From the NCBI GenBank assembly GCA_036275915.1, contig DASUCV010000022.1:310001-374000 (forward strand): a DNA stretch of 64,000 bases, in the 5' to 3' direction. Shown here piece after piece: positions 2,001 to 50,250 of the stretch (the stretch's first letter is position 1; every line of letters begins with the position of its first letter). The position numbers and the translations under genes were made by a program. The stretch is from Candidatus Polarisedimenticolaceae bacterium. Its GTDB lineage: Bacteria; Acidobacteriota; Polarisedimenticolia; Polarisedimenticolales; DASRJG01. The notes below the pieces were generated by a model that had not been told where the DNA came from, made no database searches, and worked only from the letters and a program-made list of their open reading frames with translations.

Positions 2001-5000
2001 TCAATCGCGTGATCGCCGCGCTGCATAGAGCACCGGCAACACGAAGAGCGTGAGCAGGGTCGAAGTGACGAGCCCGCCGATGACGACGGTCGCGAGCGGC
2101 CGCTGGACTTCCGCTCCTGAGCCGGTCGCGAGCGCCATCGGGACGAATCCGAGGGATGCGACGAGTGCCGTCATGAGGACCGGACGCATGCGGAGCGCGC
2201 ACGCGCGCCTCAACGCGTCGAGACGGCCGGTCCCCGGCTCGCGCTCGAGGTCGAGCACCTGCGTCACGAGCACGAGACCGTTCAGGACAGCGACGCCGAA
2301 GAGCGCGATGAATCCGACGCCTGCGGAGATCGAGAACGGCATACCGCGCGTGACCAGAGCCGCGACGCCGCCGGTGGCCGCGAAAGGCACGTTCAGATAG
2401 ATGAGAAGTGCCGGCCTGAGCGCGCCGAAGCTGAAGTAGAGCATGGCGAAGATGAGAGCGAGGGCGAGCGGGACGACGACGGCGAGGCGCCGCGAGGCAG
2501 CCTGGAGGTTCTCGAACTGCCCTCCCCAGGTCACGTAGTACCCGGCCGGCAGCGTCACCTCGCTCCGGATCTTCCGCTGAGCCTCCGCGGCGAACGAGGC
2601 GACGTCGCGGCCGCGCACGTTCAGCTCGACGACGATGCGGCGTTTCACCGCCTCGCGGCTGATCTGCGACGGACCGGTGTCGAGCGCGACCTCCGCGAGC
2701 TGGCCGAGGGGGATGCTCGCGCCGCCCCGGGACGAGGCGACGGGAATGTTGCCGAGCGCTTCGAGCGAGCCCGCCGTCGCATCGTCGAAGCGCACCGCGA
2801 GCGAGAAACGCCTCTGACCCTCGAACACCGTTCCCACGATCTTCCCGGCGCGGGCGGCCTCGACGGTGTCGAGCACATCGCCGACTGAGACGCCGTACCG
2901 GGCGCACCGGTCACGGTCGGCCCGCACGCGGATGACCGGAAGGCCGCTCGTCTGCTCGAGCTTGACGTCCGCGGCTCCCGCGACGGCCGCGGCGACGCGC
3001 GCGATCTCCTCGCCCTTCTCCCGGAGCACGTCGAGATCGTCGCCGAAGAGCTTGATCCCGATGTCCGAGCGCACGCCCGCGACCAGCTCGTTGAAGCGCA
3101 TCTCGATCGGCTGGAGGAACGTGTAGCCGATCCCCGGAACGGTCTCCTCGAGCGCCTTTTGCATCGCATCGAGCAATTCGCCTTTCGAACGGCTCGAGGT
3201 CCACTCGGACTTCGGCTTCAGGATCACGAAGACGTCGCCGAGCTCGATCCCCATGACGTCGGTCGCCAGCTCGGGGCTTCCCGAACGGCTCACCACCGTG
3301 ACGACCTCTGGGAAGCGCCGCAGCACCCGCTCGATGCGCCCGGTGCTCGCCGCGACCTCCGAGATGCCGACCGACGGCGGCCTGATCGCGGAGACCGAGA
3401 GATCGCCTTCATCGATCCGCGGCATGAACTCGCCGCCGAGACGAAGCAGGAGGAGAGCGCCTCCGGCGATGGCGGCGAGCGCCGCGAGGACGACGATCGC
3501 CCGGCGCTTCAGGCACACATCGAGCGCCCGGAGGTAGGCGCGCCGCAGAAGCTCGACGAACGTCGGTTCATGCGCGCACTTCGTGCGCTTCAGGAAGAGC
3601 GACGCGAGGACGGGCACGAGCGTCAGCGTGAGCGCCAGGGAGCCCGCCATCCCGAAGACCACCGTCCACGCCATCGGCCGGAACATCTTCCCCTCGATGC
3701 CGCCGAGCGTGAGGATCGGAACGTAGACGAGGACGATGATCCCGACGCCGAACGCGATCGGGCGCACGACCTCGTGCGCCGCCTCGGATGTCGACCCGCG
3801 GCGCCGGACGACGTTCTCGACGAGGACCACGGCGCCGTCGACGATGAGGCCGAAGTCGATCGCCCCGAGGCTCATGAGGTTCGCCGAGATCCTCGACGCG
3901 ACCATCCCGGTGAACGCGAGGAGCATCGAGAGGGGGATCGCCGACGCGACGATGAGCCCCGCGCGCACGTTCCCCAGGAACGCGAAGAGGACGGCGACGA
4001 CGAGGATGCTTCCCTCGAGGAGGTTCGTCTCCACCGTGCGAATGACGCGGTTCACGAAGCTGGCGCGGTCGTAGTAGGGAACGATCCGGACCCCCTTCGG
4101 AAGCGACGGCTGAAGCTCGTCGACCGACCGCCGCACGCGCGTCGCGACGTCGAGCGCGTTCTCTCCCGCCAGCATCTGGACGAGCCCGATCACCGTCTCG
4201 CCGCGTCCGTCCGCGGTCGCGACCCCGATCCGCAGCATCGCCCCCTCGCGCACGGTGGCGATCTGAGCGACCGTGACCGGGGTCCCATCGGGCGTGGCCC
4301 GCAGCACGATCTTCTCGATATCGGCGAGGGAGCCGACGAGCCCTTCGCCGCGGAGGATGTACTGCTCGCGGTTCCGCTCGATGTAGCCGCCGCCGGAGTT
4401 GCCACTACCGCGCTCGACCGCGTCGAACACTTCGTGAAGGGACAGGCCGTACGCGAGGAGCTTCGCCGGGTCGACGACGACCTGATATTGCTTCGGTAGC
4501 CCACCCCATGCGTTCACCTCGGTCACGCCGGGCACGGCCCTCAGGCGCGGGGCGATCTCCCAGTCGAGGATCGTCCGCCGCTCCATCGGCGAGACTCCGT
4601 CCCCTTCCACGGTGAACTGGAAGACGTCGCCGAGGCCGGTCGTGACCGGGCCCATCTCCGGGTTGCCGAACCCTTCCGGAATCGCCTCGCGCGCCTGCGC
4701 GAGGCGCTCACCGACGAGCTGGCGCGCAAAGTACACGTCCACCCCGTCCTCGAAGACGACGGTCACCGCCGACAGCCCGTAGCGTGAGATCGACCGGATC
4801 TCGACGAGGCGCGGCAGGCCGTTCATCGCCGCCTCGACCGGGTAGGTGACGAACTGTTCCATCTCGACGGCGCCGAGCGCGGGCGCCTTCGTGAGCACCT
4901 GCACCTGGACGTTCGTGATGTCCGGCACGGCATCGATGGGGAGCCGCGTGAGCGCGTAGGCGCCGCCCGCGACGACGAGGAGCCACACGATGACGACGAG

Positions 5001-13384: not shown

Positions 13385-15985
13385 ATGCACCGCTGCCCGA
13401 GATGCACGCGGCCCGTTTCCGACGGCGACCGCTTTTGCCCCGCGTGCGGCGCTCCGCTCGTCACGCCGACGTCGGCCCCGACCGAGATCAGCGCGCAGAC
13501 CCCGATCTCCGCGCCGCGCGCTTTCACACCGGGCACGATGCTCGCCGGCCGTTATCGCATCGTCGCCTTCGTCGGGCGCGGCGGCATGGGCGAGGTGTAC
13601 CGCGCCGACGACCTCAGGCTCGGCGAAGCGGTCGCGCTCAAATTCCTCCCGGAAGACGTCGCCGCCGATCCCGGCCGGCGCAAGCGCTTCGACGACGAGG
13701 TGCGGCTCGCCCGCACGATCGCGCACCCGAACGTCTGCCGCGTCTACGACGTCGGCGAGTCGGACGGCCGCACGTTTCTCACGATGGAATACGTCGACGG
13801 CGAGGATCTCGTCTCGCTGCTGCGTCGCATCGGGCGGCTCCCTCCCGCGAAGGGGGTCGAGATCGCGCGCCAGCTCTGCGCCGGGCTCGCCGCGGCGCAC
13901 GAGCGCGGGGTGCTCCACCGCGACCTGAAACCTGCGAACGTCATGATCGACGGTCGCGGTCATGCGAAGATCACCGACTTCGGCCTTGCAGTCGCGGAGA
14001 CGGAGGAAGCCGGCGACGGCGCCGGCACGCCGGCGTACATGTCGCCGGAGCAGCTCGCCGGCAAGCCCGCGACCGCGCGCTCGGATCTCTACGCGCTCGG
14101 CCTCGTCCTCTACGAGGTCTTCACTGGCAAGCGCGCCCTCGAGGCGGCGACGCTCGCGGAGTGGAGATCGGCGCACGCGTCGTCGATCCCATCGAAGCCG
14201 TCGTTGCACGTGCCCGAGCTCGATCCGGCCGCCGAGCAGGCGATGCTGCGGTGCCTCGAGAAGGATCCCGCGCGACGCCCGGCGTCGGCCACCCACCTCG
14301 CGGCGATGCTCCCCGGCGGCGACCCGCTCGCCGCCGCGCTCGCCGCGGGAGAGACGCCTTCACCCGAGCTCGTCGCGGCCGCCGGAGAGGAAGGAACGCT
14401 TTCGCTTCCCCGCGCCACCGCGTGGCTCGTCGTTGCGCTCGCCTCGATCGCGATCTCGGTCGTCGCGATCTCTCGCTACGCGCCGCTCAACCTCATCGCT
14501 GCGCCGAAGTCTCCGGAGGTCCTCGAGGACGGCATCGGCCAGATCCTGAAGACGCTCGGCTTCGAATCGCGTCCGGTCATGACATGGTGGGGAACGCACT
14601 GGGACGCCGATGCGGCCGCGAAGGCAGGCTCCGTCGCCGAGATGGGAACGCTCCGGCCTTCGCCGATGATCTTCGCTTACCGGCAGAGTCCGCAGTACCT
14701 CGACCCGCCCCGGCGAGAGGACGGGGTGAACTTCGAGGAGCCGCCTCCGTACTTTTCGGGAGAGACGCGGGTCGTCACCGACATGGCCGGGAATCTCCGC
14801 GATGTCATCGTGATGCCCGACGAGACGATCTCTCCCGAGACGCCGGCTCTCGGGTCCGTGGATTGGGCCGTCCCCTTTCGTTTGGCCGGCCTCGATCTCG
14901 CGGCGTTTCGGGAAGCGGAGCCGCAGTGGGCGCCATTCGTTCCCGCGGACGAGCGGCGTGCGTGGAAGGGAACGATCGGGAGCACCGAGGTGCGCATCGA
15001 GGGAGCCGCCTGGCGTGGGCGTGTCGACCGCTTCTCCGTGATCCTGCCGACCGATCGCTCGTCCCGCATGGGCGCGGAGTTCGCGAGCGTGTCCCAGAGG
15101 TTCGCGGCGGGACTCATCGTCGGCGTCATTCTCGCCACCTTTCTCATGCTGTCCTTTCTGGCGCGCCGGAACCTCCGGCTCGATCGGGCGTCCCGCGCCG
15201 GCGCCATGAAGTCGGCAGCCATCACCGGAGCGTTCTGCTTCTTGTGCCTCCTTCCCCATCAATCGTGGCGGGCCGACGCCGAGTTCATCTGGTGGACTTG
15301 GATCGAATGCATCGGGATCGCGCTCATGGGCGCCGCATGCGTCTGGCTCGCCTACGTCGCGATCGAGCCTTACCTGAGGCGCAATGCTCCCCACCGGCTC
15401 ATCGCCTGGACGCGTCTTCTGGACGGCCGCTGGCGCGACCCGCTCGTCGGACGCGAGGTGCTCTGCGGCACCGCCATCGGAGCGACGAGCATCGCGTGCT
15501 GGGCGCTCCCGTGGATCATCGGCGTTCCCCTTGGCTGGAAGGGGCTGAACGCGATGCTGGCGACGCCGGTCTTCTACGCGGGGCGCTTCTGGTCCGATCT
15601 GCTCTTCGACGTCTTCGCATCGATCGGCTACACCTGGATGTTCACGGGAGCGTTTCTACTCTTGAAGCTCGCGCTGCGCCGAGAGCTCCTTGCGTGGATC
15701 GGCCTCGGCCTCGTCTTCGCCGGCGGCTGGGCGGGGATCGCGCTCCCTCCGGGAGTGAAGATTGCGTTCCTCATCGCGAACGCCACTCTCGCGGTGATCG
15801 CGTTCCGTATCGGTCAGGTCACGGCGACCGTCATGACCGTGGTGATCGCGCTCCTCGTCGAGGCGCCGTTCGGCATCGGCCGCTGGTACGCGTGGCGCGG
15901 CTACGTCGTCCTCGCCATCGTGCTTGCGATCGCCATCTACGGGTTCCGCGTCGCGATCGGGAAGCGGACGCTCCTGCCTTCGTAA
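13385..15985 (+). CDS. zinc-ribbon Ser/Thr kinase with C-terminal polytopic membrane domain
   Basis: An 866-residue protein. A zinc ribbon (C4-x2-C7, C18-x2-C21) opens it. The kinase domain spans ~57-310, with glycine loop GRGGMGEVY, K86, H178-R-D180 and D198-F-G. A first membrane helix lies near 346-366, then a ~200-residue probably extracytoplasmic segment, then about seven or eight membrane helices from ~580 on. Between two of these sits AIEPYLRR...LLDGRWRDPLVGR, which is also conserved in the kinase at 53690-56359, so the two are paralogues. The TAA stop lies in the left end of a palindromic element shared with the convergent protease gene. The membrane domain has no known function. Confidence 0.93.
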   Translation: MHRCPRCTRPVSDGDRFCPACGAPLVTPTSAPTEISAQTPISAPRAFTPGTMLAGRYRIVAFVGRGGMGEVYRADDLRLGEAVALKFLPEDVAADPGRRKRFDDEVRLARTIAHPNVCRVYDVGESDGRTFLTMEYVDGEDLVSLLRRIGRLPPAKGVEIARQLCAGLAAAHERGVLHRDLKPANVMIDGRGHAKITDFGLAVAETEEAGDGAGTPAYMSPEQLAGKPATARSDLYALGLVLYEVFTGKRALEAATLAEWRSAHASSIPSKPSLHVPELDPAAEQAMLRCLEKDPARRPASATHLAAMLPGGDPLAAALAAGETPSPELVAAAGEEGTLSLPRATAWLVVALASIAISVVAISRYAPLNLIAAPKSPEVLEDGIGQILKTLGFESRPVMTWWGTHWDADAAAKAGSVAEMGTLRPSPMIFAYRQSPQYLDPPRREDGVNFEEPPPYFSGETRVVTDMAGNLRDVIVMPDETISPETPALGSVDWAVPFRLAGLDLAAFREAEPQWAPFVPADERRAWKGTIGSTEVRIEGAAWRGRVDRFSVILPTDRSSRMGAEFASVSQRFAAGLIVGVILATFLMLSFLARRNLRLDRASRAGAMKSAAITGAFCFLCLLPHQSWRADAEFIWWTWIECIGIALMGAACVWLAYVAIEPYLRRNAPHRLIAWTRLLDGRWRDPLVGREVLCGTAIGATSIACWALPWIIGVPLGWKGLNAMLATPVFYAGRFWSDLLFDVFASIGYTWMFTGAFLLLKLALRRELLAWIGLGLVFAGGWAGIALPPGVKIAFLIANATLAVIAFRIGQVTATVMTVVIALLVEAPFGIGRWYAWRGYVVLAIVLAIAIYGFRVAIGKRTLLPS

Positions 15986-16060
15986 TGGGGATATTTGTTT
16001 TTTCTTTCAGAGCTTCTGCAGTTCGAAGCTCTGAAAGAAAGAGCAGAATGTCCCCATTAC
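15982..16060. repeat. 79-bp palindromic element between convergent genes (copy A), likely bidirectional terminator
   Basis: The left arm at 15982-16016 and right arm at 16025-16060 are near-perfect inverted repeats (35 and 36 nt, one indel and a few mismatches). The 8-nt loop is TGCAGTTC. The ends read GTAATGGGGAYA. Each end supplies a TAA stop: 15983-15985 for the kinase and 16057-16059 for the protease on the other strand. A related palindrome with loop TGCAGATC and ends GGGGACA/TGTCCCC lies inside ligD at 49298-49349. The RNA from either strand would fold into a long hairpin. I read it as a REP/MITE-like mobile palindrome now serving as a transcription terminator; the mobility is inference. 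Confidence 0.8.
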
Positions 16061-47733: not shown

Positions 47734-50250
47734 GTGGCGAAAAGTAAGCCAGCAGACAAGTTAGCGCCCTACCGGGCCAAGCGTGAGGCGGCGCGAACTC
47801 CTGAGCCTTTCGGCGGGAGCGTCCCTTCGCGGCCGGGCCTCTTCGTCGTCCAGAAGCACGCCGCGCGCAGCCTTCATTTCGACTTCCGGCTCGAGCTGGA
47901 CGGCGTGCTGGTCTCCTGGGCGGTCCCCAAGGGGCCGTCGATGGACACGGCCGACAAGCGCCTCGCCGTGCACGTCGAGGACCACCCGCTCGAGTACGCC
48001 GACTTCGAGGGGGTGATCCCTCAGGAGAACTACGGCGCGGGCTCGGTGATCGTCTGGGATCGGGGCCTGTGGACGGCCCTGGAAGATCCGCACGCGGGCA
48101 TGAAGAAGGGAAAGCTCCTCTTCGACCTCGCCGGCTACAAGCTTCGTGGGCGATTCACGCTCGTTCGCACCAAGCGCTCGGAGAAGGACTGGCTCCTCAT
48201 CAAGGAGCGCGACGGTCATGTTCGCAAAGGCGAGGAGCTCCGCCAGGAGTCGGTGCTCTCGGGCCTCACGGTCGAGGAGCTGCGCGACGCGTCGGCCAAG
48301 ACGGGCGAGATCGACGCCGAGCTTCAGCGACTGAAGGCTCCCAAGCGAACGGTGAACGCGAAGGAGATTGAGTGGATGCTCGCCGAGGCGGCAAAGGCCC
48401 CGCCCGACGGTGAGGGCTGGCTCTTCGAGATCAAGTACGACGGTTACCGCCTGCTCGCGGCGCGTGAAGACGGCCGTCCGTCGCTGCGGTTTCGTGGAGG
48501 CGGCGACGCGACGTCCACCTTCCCCGAGATCGCACGCGCGCTCGCCGCACTCCCCTACGACCGCGTCCTCGTCGACGGGGAGGTCGTCGTCCTCGACGAC
48601 GACGGCAAGCCCAGCTTCGGGCGCTTGCAGAAGCGCGGCCGCTTGAGCCGCCGCTCCGAGATCGATCGAGCGTCGCTCGAGCATCCCGCCGTCCTGTTCG
48701 CCTTCGATCTTCTCGCGTTCGGCGATCGCGATACGCGGCCTCTTCCGCTGACGGAGCGGAAGCGAATCCTTCAGAAGGTCGTTCCCTCGATCGGTCCCGT
48801 TCGCTTCGCCGACCACTTCGAAGGGCGCGGAGCCGACTTCCTGGAAGCGGCACGTCGCATGGGTCTCGAGGGGATCGTGGGCAAGCGCGCCTCTGCGCCT
48901 TACCGGCGCGGCCGCAGCGCCGAGTGGGTCAAGGTGCGCTTTCAGCGCGCGGACGATTTCGTCGTCGTCGGGTTCACCGAGCCGAAGCGTGGACGGCCCG
49001 GATTCGGCGCGCTCCATCTGGCCGTCCGGGACGGAGAGGGTTATCGCTACGCGGGCCGCGTGGGAACCGGTTTCGACGATCGCCAGCTCGGAACGCTTCG
49101 CGAGCGGCTCGACGCGGAGCGACGCGACAAGCCCGCTGCCACGGGAGCGCTACCGAAAGGCCGGGAGCACGTCTGGACGAATCCCGCGATCGTCGTCGAG
49201 GTCCGCTACAAGGAATGGACCGGGGACGGCCAGCTCCGCCATCCGGTCTTCGTGCGCGTTCGCGACGACAAGACGCCCGAGGACTGCGCAGATGACAGAG
49301 GGGACAGCTTCCGAAACTCTGCAGATCGAGTTTCGGAAGCTGTCCCCTCCGATGTCGATCGCACCGTCCGATTCACGAACCTGGAGAAGGTCTTCTGGCC
49401 CGAGGAGGGACACACCAAGGGCGATCTCATCGCGTACTATCGCGCGATCGCGCCCTGGATCCTCCGCTACCTGCACGATCGCCCGCTGGTGATGACGCGC
49501 TACCCGGATGGGATCCACGGCAAGTCCTTCTTCCAGAAAGACGCCCCGGGCTTCGGCCCCGAGTGGCTCCGGAAAGAGCGGATGTGGAGCGAGCACGGCG
49601 GTCGTGAGATCGACTACTTCGTGTGCGACGACGAGCCCTCGCTCCTCTACGTGATCAATCTGGGCACGATCCCGCTCCACGTTTGGTCGAGCCGCGTGCC
49701 GAGCCTGCAACGCCCCGACTGGTGCATCCTCGATTTCGACCCGAAGGGAGCGCCGTTCAAGCACGTCGTGAAGCTGGCAGTCGCCGCGAAGGCGCTGTGC
49801 GACGAGCTCGAGCTCCCCGCGTACCTCAAGACCTCCGGCTCGACGGGGCTGCACGTCCTGATCCCGCTCGGCCGGCAATGCACGTTCGAGGAGAGCAAGC
49901 TTCTCGCGGAGCTGCTCGCCCGCGTTCTCGCGGCGGAGTTTCCCGAGATCGCGACAATCGCCCGCGCGCTCGACGCGCGCGACGGGAAGGTTTACATCGA
50001 TTTCCTGCAGAACGGCCACGGCAAGCTGCTCGTGGCGCCGTTCTCCGCGCGGCCAGTTCCGGGGGCGCAGGTGTCCACGCCGCTCCGATGGAGCGAAGCG
50101 AACGCGCGCCTCGACCCTTCGCGATTCACGATCGAGACCGTCCCCGGCCGGATGAAGAAGCTGAAGGACGATCCCCTCGCGCCGCTGCTCGAGGACGCTC
50201 CCGACCTTCGCGGCGCTCTGGAGCGGCTCGGAGCGCGCCTCGCTCGGTGA
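47734..50250 (+). CDS. ligD: ATP-dependent DNA ligase LigD (PE-LIG-POL) with in-frame palindromic insert
   Basis: An 838-residue end-joining enzyme with the domain order of Pseudomonas LigD. The 3'-phosphoesterase is at ~20-165 (H42, H48, D50 in QKHAARSLHFDFRLE). The ligase is at ~205-515 (adenylated K234 in EIKYDGYR). The primase-like polymerase is at ~545-838 (metal ligands D667 and D669 in ILDFDP). It seals double-strand breaks with Ku. The GTG start has no clear ribosome-binding site. Between ligase and polymerase, residues ~522-539 are encoded by a 52-bp perfect palindrome, an unusual insertion that keeps the frame open. The last 125 bp overlap the convergent DUF72 gene. Confidence 0.95.
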   Translation: MAKSKPADKLAPYRAKREAARTPEPFGGSVPSRPGLFVVQKHAARSLHFDFRLELDGVLVSWAVPKGPSMDTADKRLAVHVEDHPLEYADFEGVIPQENYGAGSVIVWDRGLWTALEDPHAGMKKGKLLFDLAGYKLRGRFTLVRTKRSEKDWLLIKERDGHVRKGEELRQESVLSGLTVEELRDASAKTGEIDAELQRLKAPKRTVNAKEIEWMLAEAAKAPPDGEGWLFEIKYDGYRLLAAREDGRPSLRFRGGGDATSTFPEIARALAALPYDRVLVDGEVVVLDDDGKPSFGRLQKRGRLSRRSEIDRASLEHPAVLFAFDLLAFGDRDTRPLPLTERKRILQKVVPSIGPVRFADHFEGRGADFLEAARRMGLEGIVGKRASAPYRRGRSAEWVKVRFQRADDFVVVGFTEPKRGRPGFGALHLAVRDGEGYRYAGRVGTGFDDRQLGTLRERLDAERRDKPAATGALPKGREHVWTNPAIVVEVRYKEWTGDGQLRHPVFVRVRDDKTPEDCADDRGDSFRNSADRVSEAVPSDVDRTVRFTNLEKVFWPEEGHTKGDLIAYYRAIAPWILRYLHDRPLVMTRYPDGIHGKSFFQKDAPGFGPEWLRKERMWSEHGGREIDYFVCDDEPSLLYVINLGTIPLHVWSSRVPSLQRPDWCILDFDPKGAPFKHVVKLAVAAKALCDELELPAYLKTSGSTGLHVLIPLGRQCTFEESKLLAELLARVLAAEFPEIATIARALDARDGKVYIDFLQNGHGKLLVAPFSARPVPGAQVSTPLRWSEANARLDPSRFTIETVPGRMKKLKDDPLAPLLEDAPDLRGALERLGARLAR
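49298..49349. repeat. 52-bp palindromic element (copy B) inside ligD
   Basis: Two 22-nt arms, 49298-49319 and 49328-49349, are perfect inverted repeats around the loop TGCAGATC. The arms begin GAGGGGACA and end TGTCCCCTC. The loop and GGGGACA ends match the element at 15982-16060 (loop TGCAGTTC). GATG occurs just outside each end (49291-49294 and 49351-49354), exactly 60 bp apart, so the inserted unit could be 20 codons long with a short target duplication. It lies in the linker between the ligase and polymerase domains. Confidence 0.85.

Follow-up and report, generated by a model that had tools for sequence, protein, structure and literature searches.

A palindromic repeat with GGGGWSAS-type ends in ligD of a Candidatus Polarisedimenticolaceae bacterium appears to stand in place of host codons

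The window analyzed here, a stretch of 64,000 nucleotides from a Candidatus Polarisedimenticolaceae bacterium (GCA_036275915.1, contig DASUCV010000022.1), contains a ligD gene that adjoins a ku gene. This ligD gene encodes an 838 amino acid protein with all three domains intact on either side of an in-frame palindromic element (Table 1), and its closest named relatives are found in Gemmatimonadetes and Deltaproteobacteria MAGs (55-62% identity). The element is located between the ligase C-terminal domain (match up to residue 513) and the polymerase domain (match from residue 561), and these domain matches agree with the in-frame position in the ligase-polymerase linker claimed in an earlier note on this DNA.

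Table 1. Features of the ligD locus and a second palindrome in the window
Feature	Position	Strand	Remarks
ligD (3'-phosphoesterase, ATP-dependent ligase, primase-polymerase domains)	47734..50250	+	Host of the element
54-bp palindromic element (AGA-20-nt arm-8-nt loop-20-nt arm-TCC)	49297..49350	.	Encodes RGDSFRNSADRVSEAVPS, LigD residues 522-539
Left arm, 22 nt	49298..49319	+	
Loop TGCAGATC	49320..49327	+	
Right arm, 22 nt	49328..49349	+	Perfect reverse complement of left arm
Second palindrome, GGGGACA-type ends, stem subfamily ATTCTGCTCTTTCTTTCAG, intergenic	15983..16059	.	Stem matches GGGGACATTCTGCTTTTTC end beside the L047 RAYT gene

The earlier note had described a 52-bp perfect palindrome with 22-bp arms. 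These arms are indeed exact, and they exceed the longest perfect arm (15 nt; loop of 3-20) obtained when 100 windows of 64 kb were simulated with matching dinucleotide content; the DNA folding z-score of the palindrome is -9.5. Comparison of copies from the genome extended the full unit to 54 bp, AGA-GGGGACAGCTTCCGAAACTC-loop-GAGTTTCGGAAGCTGTCCCC-TCT, the right end of the ligD copy being TCC instead of TCT. There is no stop codon in any frame of either arm, and the 18-residue peptide encoded in LigD reads RGDSFRNS-ADR-VSEAVPS. Assembly fold-backs can yield perfect palindromes, but the probability that the ligD palindrome is such an artefact, or a product of chance, is negligible: dozens of copies share one 20-nt arm and differ in their loops and flanks, a copy number that already rules this reading out, and the simulated arms never exceed 15 nt.

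To define the family unit, we aligned 50 copies gathered by pattern searches and from genome stretches. The arm GGGGACAGCTTCCGAAAC has 87 and 79 matches on the two strands (up to three mismatches), whereas the reversed control has 0 and 3, and 35 hairpins with perfect 20-nt arms are present in the genome. The exact 48-bp core was found in 34 of the 50 aligned copies, and the length is divisible by three in 41 of them. Identity between copies reaches 98% in the stems but only 50% in the loops (34% for shuffled loops), with 31 distinct loops among the 34 copies that carry the 48-bp core. As the loop varies across the family, the common loop TGCAG(A/T)TC is no family mark. It should be noted that the 8-nt loops are more alike than shuffled ones, many of them resembling GCACTTC or its complement. 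The expectation that the genome would hold further copies, some inside genes, was borne out by dozens of copies, at least six of which lie in frame in genes.

At least five copies are nested in the center of another palindrome (C4:730070, C4:793339, C10:87527, C10:16438, and C14:16685), the host being another GGGGACA palindrome or a long flanking palindrome, with perfect outward extensions of 12-30 bp. An identical nested palindrome is carried by two contig ends (C1:177948-178018 and C10:186496-186534) and probably broke the assembly there. In addition, about ten arms occur singly in the genome, with no partner, and a herA-like gene (C1:145964-148345; L012 and L048) contains two in-frame half-elements, KKNSVTVP (GTAACC-subfamily arm, near the start) and RVSEAVPS (GCTTCC-subfamily arm). 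Open frames also cross some of the palindromes of two relatives (G003 and G001), with no coding host established there. No similar elements were found in phage or plasmid records.

Further stems with identical ends are present in the genome, of the GTAACC, GGTACC, and ATTCTGC types. The ATTCTGC type includes the second palindrome of the window, which the earlier note had placed, as 15982-16060, in the same family as the ligD copy; the two have the same end type, but the different stem places it in another subfamily, and the loop is uninformative.

The ends of the element fit the GGGGWSAS consensus, as GGGGACAG is present in every aligned full copy apart from isolated mismatches. RAYT-like genes with flanking terminal inverted repeats (TIRYTs, TIRtrons), many with this consensus and some in repeat families, are described in PMC3733652, and most TIRYT proteins are assigned to TnpAREP subclass 2.1 in PMC6006769. 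In this genome and its relatives, inverted GGGG(A/T)CA repeats bracket RAYT genes at 13 of 30 loci, compared with none of 105 controls, and in three cases palindromes have the same stems as the repeats that bracket RAYT genes. Only two Y1_Tnp genes are encoded in this genome, with GTAACC (L048) and ATTCTGC (L047) ends. Both proteins score above the PF01797 cut-off; with the RAYT model NF047646 (cut-off 80), L047 reaches 82.4 bits and L048 66.5 bits, the latter below the cut-off. The C-terminal helix-turn-helix domain of TnpAREP subclass 2.1 has no Pfam match in either protein. The L048 transposase gene is flanked by exact inverted repeats of 26 nt, GGGGACAGTAACCGAGTTTTTCTTAC, identical to the stem that the 67-bp palindromes of this genome carry. 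One of the two flanking repeats falls within the herA-like coding sequence, and the L048 transposase may therefore not constitute an intact mobile unit. The L047 transposase gene has GGGGACATTCTGCTTTTTC upstream, matching the 15983-16059 copy, and in relative G003 the RAYT bracket GGGGACAGATTTATTTT is the stem of that genome's palindromes.

The assembly, which is 98% complete and comprises 24 contigs, yielded no transposase bracketed by the GCTTCC stem GCTTCCGAAACTC, and the GCTTCC subfamily is therefore an orphan, filed by its ends only and presumably mobilized by a RAYT. Its sequence features fit those of a non-autonomous palindromic repeat among the GGGGWSAS terminal inverted repeats of IS200-like RAYT/TIRYT genes, rather than those of Rickettsia palindromic elements (RPEs). 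The earlier note had likened it to RPEs, a likeness that stands for the protein-coding behavior and not for the class of repeat.

In the automatic call, most of the 50 copies are located at gene 3' ends: 23 separate convergent genes, 19 co-directional genes, and 2 divergent genes, while 5 are in frame and 1 is at the edge of a contig. This call counted the kynureninase copy among the co-directional ones, although it is intragenic, which brings the in-frame copies to six. Elements often span from stop codon to stop codon, and their AGA end sometimes completes a stop codon. GATG flanks had been taken in the earlier note as a hint of target duplication; across the family, 4-mer direct repeats flank 15 of 50 copies, compared with 10.6 +/- 2.8 for shuffled pairings, and no 6-base repeats were found. 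With flanking direct repeats at chance level, a classical transposon MITE with target duplication was rejected. The preference for gene 3' ends, with 23 convergent and only 2 divergent positions, is what would favor regarding the hairpins as selected host elements, such as bidirectional transcription terminators or RNA-stability hairpins, rather than mobile DNA. We consider this very improbable, as copies lie in frame within six unrelated genes and nested in other palindromes, related stems are identical to RAYT brackets, and relatives do not have the GCTTCC stem.

The recognized hosts of the in-frame full copies, at least six in number, are LigD, kynureninase (KynU), a Wzy/O-antigen ligase-like protein, a penicillin acylase, a VWA_CoxE protein, and a PEP-utiliser/PPDK_N protein, the last of which reads its copy in a different frame from the others. 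In the penicillin acylase, the copy lies five residues ahead of the SNAW motif of the catalytic serine. We compared five of the six (LigD, KynU, Wzy, the penicillin acylase, and the PPDK-like protein) with their orthologs. For LigD, the earlier note had predicted that orthologs would show a gap of 18-20 residues at this position. This gap is absent: the linker (C..TVRF) of this protein has 25 residues, against a median of 24 (range 17-66) in 19 orthologs, and only 7 of the 25 are host-derived, compared with 17-66 in the orthologs. The statement that the element adds 18-20 residues thus holds for its own codons (18) but not for the length of the protein relative to its orthologs. Since the linker is close to the ortholog median, the site of the element lacks host codons, and the LigD linker is, as read from the alignment, of normal length and partly built from element codons.

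The same pattern was found in the other four proteins. KynU has no host residues beside a 17-residue element, compared with 6-7 in 12 orthologs; 6 host residues are left in Wzy (16-19 in orthologs), 10 in the penicillin acylase (21-36), and 55 in the PPDK-like protein (293-297). In this PPDK_N protein (C14:29468-30736, L116), about 240 residues between two domains are gone relative to five relatives, and the element is located there. In each of the five testable genes, no ortholog has a host stretch as short as the one left here; KynU, Wzy, and the PPDK-like protein weigh most among them, as the penicillin acylase and LigD regions are length-variable among orthologs. Judged from these sequence comparisons, the element occupies the place of host codons at all five testable intragenic sites, and the replaced DNA would amount to between about 7 and about 240 codons, both element ends being intact. 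The orthologs are only 50-70% identical and offer no near empty site, so the loss of codons and the arrival of the element are not datable apart; no empty site in a near relative was found among the genomes compared, the only same-family genome (G001) having no LigD match. At intergenic copies, replacement was probed through the gaps between convergent genes and was not supported; convergent genes without elements have a median gap of -4 bp in the sampled regions, and this packing permits no conclusion on DNA loss there.

Taken together, the element is probably a palindrome of RAYT type, derived from terminal inverted repeats, that spread as a hairpin, replaced host codons and is tolerated in linkers. 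Its origin would lie in the GGGGWSAS-type terminal inverted repeats of RAYT/TIRYT tyrosine transposases, and a RAYT, whose GCTTCC-stem gene is no longer found, would have spread it as single-stranded hairpin DNA. As no frame of the arms has a stop codon and the length is usually a multiple of three, genic copies can survive as an 18-residue peptide, and such survival would be expected when they land in a linker or surface loop. Host DNA may have been lost in the same event, for example if the hairpin was captured at a broken or gapped replication fork. We put forward only tentatively the broader proposal that RAYT-type palindromes integrate by substitution, with about 20 to more than 700 bp of target lost in the same event; IS200/IS605 elements, in contrast, insert precisely.

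The main rival to same-event loss is later deletion beside a purely inserted element, in which compensating deletions followed through selection for linker length or were provoked by the palindrome. Palindromes are known to provoke deletions, and the near-normal LigD linker (25 versus a median of 24) also speaks for this sequence of events. However, the KynU and Wzy totals exceed those of their orthologs, i.e., length was not restored, and KynU has lost all 6-7 loop residues, on both sides, with the element ends intact, which needs deletions that stop exactly at the edges; we regard this account as rather unlikely. It is improbable that the ancestors of the five genes simply had unusually short loops and received the element with no loss at all. 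Linker length does vary among LigD orthologs and among penicillin acylases, and no DNA loss was seen at intergenic copies, but all five sites, including the constant KynU loop (6-7 residues in 12 orthologs) and the PPDK-like protein, would have had to fall below the whole ortholog range by chance.

In LigD, the element peptide is most likely a tolerated passenger of a flexible linker, and not a functional part of the protein. The AlphaFold model is poor (mean pLDDT 64, 9 sequences) and places the element within a low-confidence stretch (523-559), which would fit a flexible linker but proves little. A Gemmatimonadales LigD (L092) has a different interrupted palindrome in the same linker (~4570-4800), composed of GTGTCATCCCGAG... 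and CGAGGGATCTTGC with their complements, and this linker has 87 residues, compared with 39-54 in the other orthologs measured. The interdomain linker of LigD is thus permissive for such entries, since unrelated palindromes have come to lie there in this lineage and in that of L092.

A literature search joining palindromes, LigD, and in-frame insertion returned nothing relevant. The earlier note knew of no palindrome in a DNA-repair ligase, but there are precedents, namely the L092 LigD and a REP in the DNA ligase of Opitutus terrae, where PMC3733652 reports GTAG/CGTC REPs in frame in genes such as uvrA and DNA ligase. Protein-coding palindromes are thus already known, even in a DNA ligase; what appears to be new is a coding insert of the terminal inverted repeat type and the replacement pattern. 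The protein-coding palindromes known from Rickettsia and from GTAG/CGTC REPs would thereby be joined by the GGGGACAG class of terminal inverted repeats related to RAYTs. In addition, five genes are now available in which an insertion presents itself as a replacement. How REP-like elements integrate is poorly known, and this set makes the mechanism testable, since deletion of host codons is not expected of a precise transposase. If substitution is true, protein linkers would be rewritten by an 18-codon cassette with stop-free arms.

Among known systems, TIRtrons, as covered in the available text of PMC3733652 and PMC6006769, share the GGGGWSAS-type ends and the bracketing of RAYT-like genes by such repeats, some of them self-complementary and dispersed. 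Unlike them, the copies described here encode peptides, replace host codons, and have no cognate transposase with the GCTTCC stem in this assembly; the same portions of both articles describe no copies of published TIR families within coding sequences. RPEs (in-frame palindromes of ~150 bp in Rickettsia; PMC10969869) are likewise dispersed, lie in frame in several unrelated genes (six here), and add a peptide, but they differ in sequence and length (100-150 bp, compared with 54 bp here) and are described as insertions, whereas host codons are missing here. GTAG/CGTC REPs (PMC3733652) are also short in-frame palindromes in DNA repair genes, DNA ligase included, and their ends frequently supply stop codons, as the AGA end sometimes does here. 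They differ in having stems of 5-13 bp (20-22 bp here) and an unpaired GTAG or CGTC tag at one end, absent here; with ends AGA-GGGG and CCCC-TCT and a 22-bp stem, identity with these REPs was rejected. Finally, REPINs and other REP-RAYT repeats are dispersed non-autonomous hairpins tied to a RAYT class, as proposed here, but a REPIN consists of two REP hairpins in opposite orientation, whereas this element forms one long hairpin.
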